A DNA stretch of 64,000 nt, taken from assembly GCF_030814215.1 (NCBI RefSeq), contig NZ_JAUSUT010000001.1, positions 1,674,001 through 1,738,000 on the forward strand. Reading direction: 5' to 3'. Position 1 is the stretch's first letter, and the number at the start of each line of letters is the position of its first letter. The position numbers were made by a program, and so were the translations under genes. This document shows, one piece after another, positions 1-11,339 of this stretch. Below the pieces are notes generated by a model. It searched no databases and was not told where the DNA came from. It was given only the letters and a program-made list of their open reading frames with translations. This DNA is from Amycolatopsis thermophila. GTDB lineage: Bacteria; Actinomycetota; Actinomycetes; Mycobacteriales; Pseudonocardiaceae.

Positions 1-275
1 CCGGCCTGCCGCAACAACCTCTCGTACCCGCCGCCGTGCACGTGCCGGTGGACCAGTGCCGCGGGAACCAGTGCCTCCGGCGCGACCTCACCCGCCTCGG
101 CGAGGTGGGCGTGAGCGACCGAAGCCCACGCCGGGTCCCACGCGGACAACGTCGCGTGCAGGACCGCGATGCCGGGGTGACCGCCAAGCAAGGACGGCCC
201 ACAGCCGCGCACCGAGCGCAGCCGCTCCCCCACCTCCATCGCCAGCTCGACGGGATTGACGGTCAGCGTCGTCAC
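1..275 (-). CDS. lanC: LanC-like lanthionine cyclase, N-terminal part (runs off window)
   Basis: Only the first 91 codons lie in the window. The GTG at 275-273 is preceded by GGAGG seven bases upstream, which sets the start. The translation carries SLLGGHPGIAVLHA near residue 29, a glycine-rich motif like the first inner-barrel segment of LanC cyclases. It follows the LanB dehydratase gene by 26 nt on the same strand, which is the usual lanBC order. In that setting it would add cysteine thiols to dehydrated Ser/Thr to close (methyl)lanthionine rings. The zinc ligands (one His, two Cys) would be in the missing C-terminal half, so the call rests on the N-terminal motif and on context. Confidence 0.72.
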   Translation of the reverse strand, partial: MTTLTVNPVELAMEVGERLRSVRGCGPSLLGGHPGIAVLHATLSAWDPAWASVAHAHLAEAGEVAPEALVPAALVHRHVHGGGYERLLRQA

Positions 276-301: not shown

Positions 302-3151
302 TCATCGCCCGTGCCTCGCACGGTCCGCTCGCAGCGCCAGCCCGCCGTGCACCAGCGCGTACACCTCCTGCTCCCGCGCCCGGTCGATCCCGAACAGGCG
401 GTTGCAGTGCATGTGCGCCAGGCTCAGGGCGATCCGCCCGTACCGCTCCGGCGGCACCTTCGGCAGGTAGTCGGCGATCGCCCGGCTGCGCCGGGTCCAC
501 GGTTGGTCCAGCGATGCACGACCGGTGGGGTCGATGGCGGCCGCGAACTCCTCGCGTTGGTCGCGCGGAACGGATCGCCGCAGGTCGAGGGGTACCGCCG
601 CGGCGAGCCAGTCCAGGATCTCCGGAGGCTGTCCGAAATGCCGGACAAGGTCGAGCACGCTCAGCGCCGTGAGCACGTCCGGTTCCCGCTCGCCCAGCGC
701 GAGGGCGACCAGAGAGTCTGCGTGGAACACCCGCTCGGCGGCCGCGATCGCCTCGGGCCCGCCGTACCGCTCGACCTCGGGGTCGTAACTGTCCAGCACG
801 AGCCGCGACAGCAACCCGTCCGCCCGGAGCCCGCTCGCCCACGAGTGCAGCCGCGGCAGCACCGTGGTCCACAAGTTGTCCGGCTTGCCGGAGAACCGGA
901 TCCGGAGGTGCGGATCGGGATCGGCATAGCGGACGAAGTGCCAGCCGTCGACATCGCTGACCATCTCGTGCAGGCGTGAGTGGAGGATCTGGCGCTGGGC
1001 CGCGTCGCCAGCGTAGAGCTTCGCGTACAGCCAGTCCCCGCCCGGGAGCTGCAGGGCGTCGGACCCGGTCCGGGTGGCCGGAACGGGCCGTTCGGGAGCG
1101 CGTTGGCCCATCAGCTGGAAGACCACTTCGCACGCGTGTCCGTCGAACCAGCCGTCGCCGCGCGAAAGCACCTCCTGGACGACCAGCCGTGGCGTCTTCC
1201 GCAGCTCCGCCTGGAACACCGTCGTGTGCCCCGGGTCGTCGAGGTCGATCACGATCCGGTTGTCCGAGCTGGTCAGCTGCACCCACCTCGGCACGCCCCA
1301 CCGCGTCCGCCACCTCCCCACAGCCGCGGTCCAGTCGGCCGCCGGGTCGATCATGTCGCGGCTGGGCAGCCATCGGGCGGGCGCGAGCACGGTCCTCCCG
1401 TACCGGATCCGCGGCAGGAACGGCGCGGCCGACAGGGCGCCCCACCGCCACGGCAGGCACGACGGGTTCTCCTGCTCCCCCAGCTCGAGCAGGAACCGCG
1501 CGACCGGCGGGATGTGCCCGCTGCGCGGGTTCAGCATGGACCCGGACACCGGGGCGACGCGCGCGCCGGAGGTGAGGTCGACGAGGTACAGGTCGTCCTG
1601 TGTGGCCCCGACGGCGAGCTGGTCGAGGGCCAGGTCCGGGACGTCCGCGACCGCCGGCCCGCACCCGACCGGGATGCGTACCGGGAGCCGCTGCGGCACC
1701 GACGCGACGTTCGCCGATCGCGCGGTCCGGGGACGGCAGGCGACCTGCGCGGCGCCCGGCGGGGCACCTCGCCGGACCAGCTCCGTCAGCGAGGCGTCCA
1801 GCTCGGGCACCAGGTGGGCGAACCGGGCGATCGTCGAACCCGCGTGCGGCGACCCCAGGTTCTCGCCGATGACCAGACGGAACTCCCCCGCGCACAACGC
1901 TTCCCAGCTCGGGGCGAGGACCTCGGCGCACAGTTCCATCGACACCGGCCGCCGCTCCGGCGGGTCCGCGGCGAGCCGGCCGACCAGTTCGTCGTCGATT
2001 TCGATCTCGTCGCGCCCGTCGCGCACCGCCGCCAGCAGGTGCTCGACCAGGACCGAACCGCCGGGCTGTTCCGGCCGGGCGGAGAAATCGGGCAGTCCCA
2101 TCCCGCGGGTGTCGTCGAGCAACTCCAGGACGGGCACCAGCCGGTCACTGCCGTAGCGTTCGAGAAAGCGCTCTCGGTAACCGTCCAACCAGGCCGGTCC
2201 GGAGCGGCTTCCCAGACGCCACAACGCTTCCGCGGCGCGCGCGGCTTCCTCGCCGAGCACGGACGGCAAGGTCGCTTCGACATCGAGCCGGAGGTCGGTC
2301 TGGATCACGTCGGGCACGTCGTGCAGGGCCCGCATCCGGGTCGCGACGGCTCGCCGGCGGGACCAGCGGTCCTCGGCAGCGGCGTCGGCGCCGCGCAGTC
2401 CGGCCTGGATCTCCCGCAGTTCCCGGTGCAACGGGTGGCCGGCGGGAACGCGGCCGATCACGTGTCCGAGCGGGTCGACGCAGTCCGGTGGGGGATCGAG
2501 ATCGGTGAGCAGCACGCCGATGTCGACGAGCTGGCGCAGCACGCCGTCGAACCCGGTGCGCCGGAAGCGGCGGCACAGGTGCTGGACGAGGGCCGACCAG
2601 GAAATCGGGGTGCGCGCGGCGACCCGCACGGCCCGCACGAGTGGCGTGAAGCGGATCGACGCCTCGCGCCGGTGGGCGTCCTCGTACCGCTCCGGGAGCA
2701 CCAGGCGGTCGCCCCGCACGAAGCTGACGTTGTTCGCAACCAGCACGGCCTGCGACAGCACCGCCGGGTCCGTCCGCAGCCGCCGCACCACGCCGTCCAG
2801 CCAGTCGGCGTCCGTCCGACTGGTCGGACGATGTCGCGCACCGATCCGCAACGCGGGCCATGCACCAAACCGGACCGGCGCGACGCCCGCGAACAGCCCG
2901 AACGGTGTCGGCCGGCTGGTCATGCGCAGGTGGTACTTGGCGAGGGCGAGGGTGCTGCGGCGGCGCACCTTGTCCTTGACCGCGTCGCCGCGCACCACGC
3001 GGCGGACGTCGTTCGCCAGGCTGGGACTGGCGGCGTCGACGGCCTCCATCAGGAGTTCGTCGGCCGCGAGGACGTCCAGCGGCGGGATCGGACCGTCGGT
3101 CCGGGGCCGCACCGCCGCCCGCAACAGGGCCAGGCCCGCACACGTGAACAT
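302..3151 (-). CDS. lanB: class I lanthipeptide dehydratase LanB (full length)
   Basis: A 949-residue protein, the usual size of full-length LanB enzymes, which use glutamyl-tRNA to glutamylate Ser/Thr of the precursor and then eliminate it. The N-terminal glutamylation domain shows the family motif RPTPFGLFAG around residues 80-89. The C-terminal SpaB_C elimination domain is recognisable by WLYAKLYAG, ILHSRLHEMV and WHFVRYADPDPHLRIRF. I start at ATG 3151 (MFTCAGLALLRA), which has GGGAG about nine bases upstream. The longer GTG start at 3208 would have to translate through a perfect hairpin and is less likely. The gene follows the precursor gene and precedes a LanC-like gene by 26 nt. Both LanB domains are on one chain, so this is not a split thiopeptide-type dehydratase. 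Confidence 0.92.
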   Translation of the reverse strand: MFTCAGLALLRAAVRPRTDGPIPPLDVLAADELLMEAVDAASPSLANDVRRVVRGDAVKDKVRRRSTLALAKYHLRMTSRPTPFGLFAGVAPVRFGAWPALRIGARHRPTSRTDADWLDGVVRRLRTDPAVLSQAVLVANNVSFVRGDRLVLPERYEDAHRREASIRFTPLVRAVRVAARTPISWSALVQHLCRRFRRTGFDGVLRQLVDIGVLLTDLDPPPDCVDPLGHVIGRVPAGHPLHRELREIQAGLRGADAAAEDRWSRRRAVATRMRALHDVPDVIQTDLRLDVEATLPSVLGEEAARAAEALWRLGSRSGPAWLDGYRERFLERYGSDRLVPVLELLDDTRGMGLPDFSARPEQPGGSVLVEHLLAAVRDGRDEIEIDDELVGRLAADPPERRPVSMELCAEVLAPSWEALCAGEFRLVIGENLGSPHAGSTIARFAHLVPELDASLTELVRRGAPPGAAQVACRPRTARSANVASVPQRLPVRIPVGCGPAVADVPDLALDQLAVGATQDDLYLVDLTSGARVAPVSGSMLNPRSGHIPPVARFLLELGEQENPSCLPWRWGALSAAPFLPRIRYGRTVLAPARWLPSRDMIDPAADWTAAVGRWRTRWGVPRWVQLTSSDNRIVIDLDDPGHTTVFQAELRKTPRLVVQEVLSRGDGWFDGHACEVVFQLMGQRAPERPVPATRTGSDALQLPGGDWLYAKLYAGDAAQRQILHSRLHEMVSDVDGWHFVRYADPDPHLRIRFSGKPDNLWTTVLPRLHSWASGLRADGLLSRLVLDSYDPEVERYGGPEAIAAAERVFHADSLVALALGEREPDVLTALSVLDLVRHFGQPPEILDWLAAAVPLDLRRSVPRDQREEFAAAIDPTGRASLDQPWTRRSRAIADYLPKVPPERYGRIALSLAHMHCNRLFGIDRAREQEVYALVHGGLALRADRARHGR

Positions 3152-3178
3152 CGGTTCGTCTCCCGGCGCGACTGGGTC

Positions 3179-3210
3179 GGGTGGCGGGCCTCCCGCAAGG
3201 CCCGCCACCC
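3179..3210 (-). terminator. intercistronic hairpin between lanA and lanB
   Basis: Perfect 12-bp inverted repeat GGGTGGCGGGCC / GGCCCGCCACCC with an 8-nt loop, lying between the precursor stop (3222) and the lanB ATG (3151). There is no long U tract. It therefore looks like an attenuator or RNA-stabilising stem of the kind often seen after lanthipeptide precursor genes, which raises precursor mRNA above enzyme mRNA. The role is inferred from position. Confidence 0.75.
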
Positions 3211-3221
3211 GGAGAATCAGG

Positions 3222-3350
3222 TCAGCAGGACGGCCACAGGGTGGCGCAGATGTCGCTGAACCCGGACTTGTTGGTCAGCAGGTCCCCGTCCTGGGTCGGA
3301 GCCGAGATACGAAGGTCCAGGTCGAAGTCCTCGGGAGCCAGGTTTTCCAC
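3222..3350 (-). CDS. lanA: class I lanthipeptide precursor peptide
   Basis: A 42-residue peptide from GTG 3350, with AAGGAG ending ten bases upstream. The open frame extends to 3419, but the upstream part lacks a better ribosome site. The leader contains FDLDLRI (residues 9-15), the conserved FNLD/FDLD-type box read by class I LanB enzymes. The C-terminal region has five hydroxy residues (Thr26, Ser29, Ser32, Thr37, Ser41) and only two cysteines (Cys35 and the terminal Cys42), so at most two (methyl)lanthionine rings can form. The segment SGFSDICATLWPSC does not match any lantibiotic core I know. Protease gene, leader cleavage site and transporter are not in the window. It sits directly upstream of lanB on the same strand. 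Confidence 0.88.
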   Translation of the reverse strand: MENLAPEDFDLDLRISAPTQDGDLLTNKSGFSDICATLWPSC

Positions 3351-3394
3351 GATGTGAACTCTCCTTCGCTGTGCGGTGTGGCTCGTGCCACTGC

Positions 3395-3445
3395 TCTCAG
3401 ACCGTAGAAGATTGTTCAACGATCCATCAAGAGGTTGATTCTTAC
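3395..3445 (-). promoter_or_regulatory. candidate promoter region of the lanthipeptide operon
   Basis: The stretch upstream of lanA is clearly AT-richer than its surroundings. On the minus strand it contains TTGATG, 18 nt, then TACGGT, a plausible but imperfect -35/-10 pair ending about 55 nt before the GTG. Weak evidence; no operator was recognised. Confidence 0.3.
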
Positions 3446-3543
3446 GTGGTATTGCGCTACGAAGTTGCTTTTGACCCTTGTTCCGCGGCTACCCATCGTG
3501 ACCCTGTGGTGTAATTCGGCCGCCGAGAGTGAGGGGGACGCCG

Positions 3544-4680
3544 ATGCGCCGGATCGCCGCGCTGATGCTGGCACTGCTGGTCACGACCGCGGCGATGACC
3601 GTCCCGGCGCACGCGGCCGAACGCACCGAACTGGGCGTCGGCGCGTATCCCCGGGTGATCCGCCTGGAGCACACGCCGTTCCGGCGGGGCCGGATCATCG
3701 CGTCGGTGAACAGCTGGGACGGCGGCGGCGCGTTCGCGCGGATCTTCGAGAGCACCGACGAGGGCGCGACCTTCCACGCGATCGGTGAGATCCGCGACCC
3801 GGAGGGCGCGCAGGGCGAGTGCTGCGGCAGCCTCTACGAGCTCCCGCAGCGCGTCGGCCGGCTCCGCGCCGGGACCCTGCTGTGGGCGGCGTCCTACGGC
3901 CAGAACGGGGGCGCCGGGCGTCGCATGTCGATCCGGATCTGGTCCAGTTCGGACGGTGGCCGGACCTGGGCGTTCCTGTCCGAAGCGGCCCGTTCACACA
4001 ACCACGACGGCGTGTTCGAGCCGGAGTTCACCGTGGACGCGGGCGGGACACTCTGGATGCACTACGCCGACGAAACCGAAGCGCCCCGGTACAGCCAAGT
4101 GCTCAACCGGGTCGCCTCGACCGACGGCGTCAGCTGGGGAACCAAGCAGAACACCCTCGCGATTCCGCCCGACCGCGTCCGTCCCGGCATGCCGGTCGTG
4201 CGCCGGCTGCCCGACGGGCGCTACTACTTCGGCTACGAGATCTGCAACTACGGCCGGCGCTACTGCGACCCCTACTTCAAGATCTCCGGCGACGGCGCGA
4301 ACTACGGCGATCCGGCCGATCCCGGCACCCGCGTGGAGACGGCGAACGGTGACTACTTCCAGCACGCGCACACCGTCGCCGTTTTCCCCGGCGGACCGAA
4401 CGGCGTTCGGCTGCTGATGGTCGGCCAGATCTACACGGACAGCAGCGGGAACCCCCGGCCGAACAACGGCCAGATCCTGCTCGCCAACGACGACCTCGGA
4501 TCGGGCACCTGGTACGAGCTATCCGCGCCGGTGCGCGTTCCCCGTGCCTACAACAACTTCTGCCCGAACTACAGCTCGGCACTGCTCCCGGTGGACGACG
4601 CGCGCAACGTCCTGGAGCTGGCCGCCGACTACGACGGCGGGGTCTGCAAGGTCTACTTCGGCACGGGGCCGGCGTCCTGA
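3544..4680 (+). CDS. secreted Asp-box (BNR) sialidase-like protein
   Basis: A 378-residue protein starting at ATG 3544, six bases after AGGGGG. The GTG 15 bases upstream is in frame but overlaps that ribosome site. Residues 1-24 form a Sec signal peptide (RR, hydrophobic core, AHA-AE cleavage). The mature part has Asp-box motifs STDEGATFHAIG, SSDGGRTWAFL and STDGVSWG, diagnostic of six-bladed BNR/sialidase propellers, and YPRVIRL resembles the start of the sialidase F/YRIP region. Several cysteines (ECCGS, EICNYGRRYC, NNFC) suggest disulfides outside the cell. The substrate cannot be read from sequence; exo-sialidase or another glycan-binding role is possible. The 3' end overlaps the convergent thiol oxidoreductase gene by 28 bp. 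Confidence 0.82.
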   Translation: MRRIAALMLALLVTTAAMTVPAHAAERTELGVGAYPRVIRLEHTPFRRGRIIASVNSWDGGGAFARIFESTDEGATFHAIGEIRDPEGAQGECCGSLYELPQRVGRLRAGTLLWAASYGQNGGAGRRMSIRIWSSSDGGRTWAFLSEAARSHNHDGVFEPEFTVDAGGTLWMHYADETEAPRYSQVLNRVASTDGVSWGTKQNTLAIPPDRVRPGMPVVRRLPDGRYYFGYEICNYGRRYCDPYFKISGDGANYGDPADPGTRVETANGDYFQHAHTVAVFPGGPNGVRLLMVGQIYTDSSGNPRPNNGQILLANDDLGSGTWYELSAPVRVPRAYNNFCPNYSSALLPVDDARNVLELAADYDGGVCKVYFGTGPAS

Positions 4681-9413: not shown

Positions 9414-11339
9414 ATGGGCACTACCGGATTGAGCCGGCGGGCGTTGTTCGGGCTGGTGGCGGCTGCTGGGGCGTTCATTGCCGCGCGTGGGGCGCAGGCC
9501 GCGCCGGGAGCGGGACGGGCGAGCCGCGGAGGGCGGCCAGGGGGCGTTCGGGGAGTCGCGTCGCGACTGGGGGCGAACGGTAGGTGGGCGGGGTTCGACG
9601 AAGCGGCGGCGCCGCCGCGGCTCGTGTCGGTCGCGGTGGGAAGGGGGCCGCAGGCGGTCGCGGTGAATTCGGTCACCGGGGTGGTCTTCGTGGCGAATGC
9701 CGGGGATCGGACGGTGTCCGCCGTCGAGCAGGGGGAGGTTGCGACGGTCGGACCGGCCGGCGGTGGGCGGCAGGTCGAGGTTGCGGCGCACGCTGATCAA
9801 CAGGGGACGGTAGCGCCCAGCGTCGGCCAGCAGGGCGAGGCTGCCGCGGTCGGGCCGACCGGCGGGCAGGGAGGGCCGGTTCCGGCGAGCGCTGATCAAC
9901 GGGGAAAGGTCGGCCTGACAGGTGGACAGGGGGCGACGAACGCGCCGGTCGGACTGGACGATGGTCGGCCGCGCCGCGTCGGGGCGACCGGCGATCAAGG
10001 GGGAAAGATCGGGCTGACCGTCGGTGAGTTGGGGACCACTGCAGTGGTTGCGGCGGCCGCTGATCAGCAAGGTGGGGTTGCGCTGACGGTTGATCAGCGG
10101 GCGGCGACCACAGCGGTCGCGGGGACCGTCGAGCAGGGGGTCGCGACCACAGCTGTCGGGCTGGCCGGTGGTTGGCAGGGCAAGGTCGCGGCGAAAGTCG
10201 GGCGACAGGCGACGCCCGCAGCGGTCGGACCGGCCGCCGAACAGCACGGCAAGGTCCCGGCGACCGCCGGGCAGGGGGCGACCACCACAGCGATCCGGCC
10301 AGCCGCCGAGCAGCAGGGCAGGGTTGCGGCCGCTGATCCGGAGGGGACGACCACGGCGGCCGGAACGAATGGTGGCCCCCAGGTGCAGCTGGCGGGCGGT
10401 CGGCGGTGGGTCGTGCCCACTGGCGGGGCGCCCAGCGATCAGGGGTGGATCGTGCCCAGGGGCGGGGTGCCCAACGATCAGCGGTGGATCGTGCCCACTA
10501 GCGGGGCGCCCAGCGATCAGCGCTGCGTCGTGCCCACTGGCGGGCTCCCTAGCGATCAGCGGTCCATCGTGCCCACCGGCGGGGTGCCCAACGGCCAGCG
10601 GTGGATCGTGCCCACCGGCGGGGTGCTCAGCGATCTCCTCATCGACGAACACGCGGGTCTCGTCTACGTCGCGGACAGTACGGCCGGCACGACGGCCGTT
10701 CTCGAGGCCGCCGAGGGGGCGATCCGGAACGTCATGGCGACCGGGCCCGGGTCCTCGGCCCTGGCACTCGACCCTGAAAGATACAACCTGTATGTATGTG
10801 GGGACGACCAGATCAGCGTCGTCGACCTGTTCGGGCAGGTTCTCGCCACCACGATTCCCACCCCGGGACGGCAACTCGTCAGCGCCGTGATCGACGGGCC
10901 GCGCCGCGCCGGGTACTTCGCCGACCTCCGCAACAACACGGTCGAAGTCCTCGACCTCGACAGCCACCGGTTCACCAGCCGCATCCAAGTGGGCACGGGA
11001 CCCTCCGGACTCGCGCTGCACCGGGGCACCAACACGGTTTACGTCGCGAATTCGGGTATCCACCACCTGTCCGTGGTCGACGGGGCCACGCACGCACAAA
11101 CGAACACCATCCTGATGCGCAGCGCAGCCTCGTCGATCGCCGTGCACGAAGGGAGCCACACCGTCTACACCAACGGCGGCCCGGACGGGATCGTGCGCGT
11201 CGACGGCGCCCGCGGCGCGATCACCGGCGAACTCACGCTCGGCATCAACCCGGGCCGCCTCGCCGTCGACCAGCGGACCGGCGCCGTCCACGTCACCGAC
11301 CCCCTCCACGACCGGCTCCACACCATCACCGGATTCTGA
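9414..11339 (+). CDS. secreted YVTN/YncE-like beta-propeller with long low-complexity insertion
   Basis: A 641-residue protein from ATG 9414, placed after GGGGAGG. LSRRALFGLVAAAGAFIAARGAQA is a Tat-type signal sequence. One propeller strand set follows (VSVAVGRGPQAVAVNSVTGVVFVANAGDRTVSAVE, residues ~70-104). Then comes about 230 residues of Ala/Gly/Gln/Val/Thr-rich sequence with loose ~16-residue periodicity (QQG...V...TTAVG). After that are six tandem 13-residue repeats of the type WIVPTGGVPSDQR (residues 332-409). The remaining blades run from LIDEHAGLVYVADSTAGTT to the C-terminus, with VYVANSGIHHLSVVDG and similar YVTN motifs. It has no catalytic signature. The insertion splits the first blade from the others, as though a repeat expanded inside a propeller loop. 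Confidence 0.82.
   Translation: MGTTGLSRRALFGLVAAAGAFIAARGAQAAPGAGRASRGGRPGGVRGVASRLGANGRWAGFDEAAAPPRLVSVAVGRGPQAVAVNSVTGVVFVANAGDRTVSAVEQGEVATVGPAGGGRQVEVAAHADQQGTVAPSVGQQGEAAAVGPTGGQGGPVPASADQRGKVGLTGGQGATNAPVGLDDGRPRRVGATGDQGGKIGLTVGELGTTAVVAAAADQQGGVALTVDQRAATTAVAGTVEQGVATTAVGLAGGWQGKVAAKVGRQATPAAVGPAAEQHGKVPATAGQGATTTAIRPAAEQQGRVAAADPEGTTTAAGTNGGPQVQLAGGRRWVVPTGGAPSDQGWIVPRGGVPNDQRWIVPTSGAPSDQRCVVPTGGLPSDQRSIVPTGGVPNGQRWIVPTGGVLSDLLIDEHAGLVYVADSTAGTTAVLEAAEGAIRNVMATGPGSSALALDPERYNLYVCGDDQISVVDLFGQVLATTIPTPGRQLVSAVIDGPRRAGYFADLRNNTVEVLDLDSHRFTSRIQVGTGPSGLALHRGTNTVYVANSGIHHLSVVDGATHAQTNTILMRSAASSIAVHEGSHTVYTNGGPDGIVRVDGARGAITGELTLGINPGRLAVDQRTGAVHVTDPLHDRLHTITGF
10407..10640 (+). repeat. 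six tandem 39-bp repeats inside the propeller gene
   Basis: Six in-frame 39-bp units encode WVVPTGGAPSDQG, WIVPRGGVPNDQR, WIVPTSGAPSDQR, CVVPTGGLPSDQR, SIVPTGGVPNGQR and WIVPTGGVLSDLL. The period is exact in DNA and protein, and the last copy is degenerate. Direct tandem structure without spacers rules out a CRISPR. Confidence 0.93.
10781..10800. promoter_or_regulatory. operator-like AT-rich element within the propeller gene
   Basis: The bases contain ATACA-ACC-TGTAT, a 13-bp palindrome, and CTGTATGTATGTG (10788-10800), a 13-nt exact copy of the right half of the palindrome near 6813-6825. The codons used here (AGA, TAT, GTA, TGT) are rare in this genome. It may be a second site for the same TetR protein; function is inferred only from the match. 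Confidence 0.4.

Follow-up and report, generated by a model that had tools for sequence, protein, structure and literature searches.

Among described lanthipeptide systems, that of microbisporicin (NAI-107), comprising MibA, MibB and MibC, has an actinobacterial leader with a DLDL-type box like that of the peptide described here. Its core is unrelated to the present one, which has only two Cys residues, and the extra tailoring genes of the microbisporicin system are not found in the insert containing the present operon. NisB and NisC of the nisin system are related to the full-length LanB and zinc-dependent LanC encoded here, and NisA resembles the present precursor in having an FNLD-type leader and a basic residue before the core. 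The two systems differ in that nisin has five Cys residues against two, and in that the present core lacks the nisin lipid II motif and its insert lacks protease, transport and immunity genes. The NCBIfam family NF038155 (FDLD family class I lanthipeptide) combines an FDLD box with a short Cys-containing core, as does this peptide. Labyrinthopeptin-type class III peptides have a motif in common with its core (S29-x-x-S32-x-x-C35); they are made by LanKC, whereas the cluster described here holds LanB and LanC.

The peptide is encoded by a short gene, lanA, in a 64-kb stretch of Amycolatopsis thermophila DNA (the window), which lies within a single-contig genome of 7.3 Mb. Judged by sequence and surroundings, lanA very likely encodes the precursor in a minimal class I operon of three genes, lanA-lanB-lanC, whose product would be a short two-ring lanthipeptide.

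The lanA gene, its enzymes and its putative control elements

The features of the locus are as follows.

1..275, minus strand: 5' part of lanC, the cyclase gene, starting at GTG 275 and continuing beyond the window to its end at L002:11136
302..3151, minus strand: lanB, full-length class I dehydratase of 949 aa from ATG 3151, with PF04738 and PF14028
3178..3211, minus strand: 15-bp GC hairpin between lanA and lanB, no U-tract
3225..3350 (stop codon 3222-3224), minus strand: lanA, GTG start, predicted 42-aa class I lanthipeptide precursor
3225..3266, minus strand: proposed core, residues 29-42, SGFSDICATLWPSC
3267..3350, minus strand: leader, residues 1-28, FDLDL box at residues 9-13, with proposed cleavage after Lys28
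3361..3366, minus strand: ribosome-binding site of lanA, AAGGAG, 10 nt before the GTG
3401..3430, minus strand: promoter-like TTGATG-N18-TACGGT, a putative assignment
3409..3425, no strand assigned: near-palindrome GGATCGTTGAACAATCT between the two hexamers
3544-4680, plus strand: BNR-repeat-like gene, divergent from the operon, with a weak BNR match under the Pfam cut-off

The initial annotation had placed a 42-residue, GTG-started gene with a leader box at 3222-3350, coordinates that are correct but were given without the minus strand on which the gene lies. Translation of that strand yields 42 codons, MENLAPEDFDLDLRISAPTQDGDLLTNKSGFSDICATLWPSC, starting with GTG at 3348-3350 and containing two cysteines only, Cys35 and Cys42, as had been stated; the plus strand of the same interval gives residues unrelated to the peptide. 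At the ribosome-binding site, GAAGGAGAG is found in all seven aligned genus copies, and because ATG replaces GTG at the start position in two of them (G007 and G008), the annotated start is supported. The pattern F[DN]LD[LV] occurs a single time in the six-frame translation of the window, as the FDLDL of lanA.

That lanA stands directly before a full-length lanB and a lanC-like gene, another point of the initial annotation, is confirmed by Pfam domains and synteny. Domain-level matches to the glutamylation (Lant_dehydr_N, PF04738, E 3.3e-171) and elimination (Lant_dehydr_C, PF14028, E 1.2e-49) domains were found in one LanB protein. The closest solved relative in a PDB search was 5ehk, 'Lantibiotic dehydratase' (E 1.2e-141), which we take to be MibB; NisB followed at E 4e-33. 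The lanB reading frame could be extended to GTG 3208, giving 968 aa, but ATG 3151 is the more likely start because the seven genus copies have MF[TS]C in common at this point. The separate LanC matches LANC_like (PF05147, E 6e-34) and the solved structures 8byk (E 3.7e-34) and NisC (E 9.9e-11), and carries the zinc-ligand motifs WCYG and CHG, which were present in all 12 long loci scanned. With an FxLD leader and a core holding Cys and Ser/Thr, the precursor fits the same class. The proposed class I assignment is well supported by conservation, synteny and the homology of both enzymes.

Against NF038155 the peptide scored 15.4 bits, under the cut-off of 20, the match being limited to residues 8-23 of the leader. 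All nine homologues, which are described below, match this model at E<=1; scored singly, the distant pair passes (23.8), and G008 (17.2) and G006 (15.4) fail. The precursor is thus unrecognised, as first described, but only just so. The further claim that the core matches none described is consistent with searches of the PDB and the literature: a search with the precursor alignment found no PDB relative, and SGFSDICATLWPSC was not found described in the literature, a search that left out supplements and precursor databases and does not imply absence from print.

A methyltransferase-dependent product of the isoaspartate/aspartimide type was also considered. TIGR04364 (PIMT-like methyltransferase) matched eight places in the genome, the best of them reaching 137.9 bits against a cut-off of 320; matches, likewise all under the cut-off, also occurred in 14 of 14 control genomes. 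None of the eight places fell within the yajQ-BNR insert. This type of FxLD-methyltransferase lanthipeptide was rejected, Asp33 being nonetheless invariant.

Upstream of lanA, the seven genus copies share the promoter-like block with minor differences; an automatic consensus promoter scan of 3140-3600 reported no promoter-like site. The near-palindrome within the block resembles, and may be, a GntR/FCD operator. With up to 2 mismatches allowed, the genome (7.3 Mb) has four GGATCGTTnAACGATCC-like palindromes, this one included, and a reversed control gave none. One of the other three (L061) is flanked by a GntR/FCD regulator gene on one side and the gene of an MFS transporter on the other; inspected by eye, the remaining two (L062 and L064) have no GntR-like gene beside them. 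The spacer between lanA and lanB folds at -40.2 kcal/mol (z -3.15). Its hairpin has a 14-pair consensus stem in the seven genus copies, the innermost pair being broken in one, with weak covariation (of the 17 predicted pairs, a single one varies at both partners), and the strong stem is missing in the distant pair. The hairpin is a possible partial terminator or mRNA stabiliser, which would raise the lanA transcript over that of lanB or stabilise the lanA message.

Distribution, conservation and history of the operon

The search of related genomes that had been suggested for this peptide was carried out and returned six further intact genus copies and two distant homologues. Counting that of A. 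thermophila, lanA is present in 8 of 19 genus genomes, full-length in seven and truncated in one (G009), and no precursor match was found in the other 11. The six other intact copies are 90-98% identical to the window peptide; Amycolatopsis thermalba, A. tucumanensis and A. deserti are named records among the matched relatives. Among 390 family genomes, two distant homologues were found, both in genus g30 and at 41% identity, directly before a LanB 59% identical to that of the window. The peptide is common to one subclade of the genus and not specific to the strain.

An order-wide search with the precursor alignment (397 genomes, E<=0.1, the genomes of the distant pair possibly not among them) matched 11 genomes, five of them from the genus, one truncated. 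The distant g30 homologues were not among the matches. The six matches outside the genus (E 0.007-0.08) were rejected as chance, their loci lacking any short ORF in which a Cys follows an FDLD-like box.

The core is strongly conserved. Comparing every pair among the seven intact genus copies gives it a pN/pS of 0.048, a figure drawn from a short core with few changes; per site, an amino-acid change is about 20-fold less frequent there than a silent one. The pN/pS values are 0.252 for the leader and 0.305 for lanB. One amino-acid difference, A36D in G006, is seen in the core across seven genomes. Residues E2, L4, A5, P6, D8 to L13, K28, G30, D33, I34, C35, T37 and C42 are invariant in all nine homologues, and positions 29 and 32 are Ser or Thr in every one; in the distant pair, Thr26 is not kept and Ser41 is replaced by Pro.

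These data bear on whether lanA could be no gene at all but a fortuitous frame ahead of lanB, the real precursor lying elsewhere. The gene is short, starts with GTG, lies in GC-rich DNA and scores under the NF038155 cut-off, all of which such a frame might do. Yet it is full-length in nine genomes at the same place before lanB, the changes within the genus are mostly silent, and the leader pattern is found nowhere else in the window. A precursor near lanC would have to fit between the lanC stop at L002:11136 and the end of yajQ at 11102, and since this gap is only 33 bases there is no space for one. We rejected a chance frame on its conservation across genomes and regard its probability as negligible.

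Beyond lanC lies yajQ (a putative identification, read from the translation), followed by a tRNA-Tyr gene; on the other side, the BNR-like protein has an N-terminus that reads as signal-peptide-like. In one subclade, the three-gene operon appears to have been inserted between yajQ and the BNR gene, because these two genes adjoin without it in all four lan-less genomes compared (G018, G013, G004 and G003, of 11 such) and each of the 19 genus genomes has the BNR-like gene. In the lan-less genomes, about 200-590 bases of unmatched DNA separate the stretches matching the yajQ side and the BNR side. Neither a protease nor a transporter nor an immunity gene was found within the three-gene insert. 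In G009 (L058), the lanA frame lacks a start and the FDLD box, lanB matches fall in several frames, and the WCYG and CHG motifs of lanC remain; this operon is, by its sequence, decayed. Its decay and the lack of a precursor match in 11 of 19 genus genomes indicate that the operon is dispensable. Separately, ORFs with clearly lower third-position GC (0.62-0.71) were seen farther out on the lanC side at L013:13528-15343 and L014:14036-16124, possibly a mobile insert.

Related LanB proteins accompany other cores. A family-wide lanB search hit 141 of 390 genomes at E<=1e-60, and precursors were sought by an FDLD-like pattern beside the family lanBs in the 30 loci listed. Class-wide, 2 of 394 genomes matched at E<=1e-140, the genome itself and G1028 (44% identity), where the likely precursor has an unrelated core. 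Because the LanBs of G106 and G221, 54-55% identical, stand behind precursors with unrelated cores, this LanB clade seems to serve various cores. Four genomes of the family search (G217, G129, G212 and G216; L034, L036, L037 and L038) share a common precursor type with the core ...NTCTSPCTSVACTHSGSC, beside lanBs 40-41% identical to that of the window. In G033, of the same family, a precursor-like ORF adjoining lanB (L048:4741-5049) ends VTSVSLCTPGCTSPGGGSNCSFCC, which in our estimation strongly resembles the microbisporicin/NAI-107 core.

Cleavage site, ring pattern and the labionin-like motif

Lys28 probably ends the leader, because it is invariant in nine of nine homologues, with Thr26 not kept and Ser41 changed to Pro in the distant pair. 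It follows the box by 15 residues in this peptide and by 14 in the distant pair. Counted by eye, the G221 precursor has an Arg-Ser junction 14 residues past the box, while the corresponding junction of the G106 precursor lacks a basic residue.

The initial annotation allowed for up to five dehydrations. This is unlikely: Thr26 precedes the invariant Lys28 and is absent in the distant pair, where Ser41 is Pro, leaving positions 29, 32 and 37 as the only conserved acceptors of the core. Two non-crossing rings, 32-35 and 37-42, with 2-4 dehydrations seem likelier. The pairs Ser32-Cys35 and Thr37-Cys42 follow from a nearest-acceptor rule, stated in a passage of PMC11251773, by which Cys joins the preceding free Ser or Thr three or more residues away. 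Were the first ring formed from Ser29 to Cys35 instead, a seven-residue ring would enclose Dha32, comparable to the outer Ser in some class III peptides. Position 29, Ser or Thr in nine of nine homologues, is indeed kept as strictly as position 32; the same rule from PMC11251773 favours 32-35, however, and passages of the literature that deal with such motifs offered no class I precedent, so that we consider the larger ring rather unlikely and retain Ser32-Cys35. A C-terminal AviCys was set aside as a conserved feature, since the distant pair continue with Arg-Lys past the last Cys; no LanD gene was seen within the insert.

The segment S29-x-x-S32-x-x-C35 fits the class III labionin motif SxxSx2-5C as given in a passage of PMC11251773, and a similar motif, Sx2Sx3C, appears in part of PMC7268733. 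It reads SGFSDIC in all seven intact genus copies and TGVTDIC in the distant two, which thus have T-x-x-T-x-x-C. Conversion of [ST]-x-x-[ST]-D-I-C by LanB and LanC into a labionin or methyl-labionin carbacycle would give a peptide with one labionin and one methyllanthionine. No LanKC kinase-lyase-cyclase synthetase is present in the window cluster, which has LanB and LanC instead, and we think this outcome very improbable, a plain thioether being the default for S-x-x-S-x-x-C here. Labionin is, to our knowledge, known only from class III systems.

Proposed biosynthesis and role

From these features we infer the following course of dehydration, ring formation, cleavage and export. LanB would bind the FDLDL leader and dehydrate core Ser and Thr residues via glutamyl-tRNA, and LanC, a zinc cyclase, would then join the resulting dehydro residues to Cys35 and Cys42. 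Cleavage past Lys28 would fall to a protease from another locus, and a general exporter would release the product. The likeliest product is a peptide of 14 residues with non-overlapping rings Ser32-Cys35 (Lan) and Thr37-Cys42 (MeLan). Ser29 would become Dha, and a pyruvyl cap once N-terminal, or stay Ser, and dehydration of Ser41 would be optional. Passages of PMC8960859 describe class I clusters without a protease gene as noticed increasingly often, and part of PMC11672506 describes the protease gene as typically missing from lanthipeptide clusters of Actinobacteria.

Most characterised class I peptides are antibacterial, and the strong conservation of the core would suit a lantibiotic with a conserved target, a function compatible with the structure proposed above. 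The insert carries no immunity or transporter gene, however, and the core lacks the nisin-type lipid II motif SxxxCTP(G/S)C as given in a passage of PMC7268733; we regard an antibacterial role as less likely than not. A signalling or developmental role seems at least as likely, given a core that hardly varies from species to species and an operon unaccompanied by genes for immunity or transport. SapT, described in part of PMC9011353 as a class I peptide with morphogenetic activity, no clustered protease and a split LanB, provides a precedent for a non-antibiotic role.

The leader, enzymes and gene order are those of ordinary class I systems, the sole oddity being the S-x-x-S-x-x-C motif in a class I setting, and the lanA product is very probably a new, well-conserved lanthipeptide of a known sort. 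Amycolatopsis is known for its antibiotics, and the genus gains here a small class I core that is nearly invariant, together with a minimal three-gene operon. With a core of 14 residues, two Cys, and a single LanB and LanC, the system is tractable, and with its conserved SxxSxxC motif one could ask directly if the cyclases of class I are able to make more than simple thioethers.
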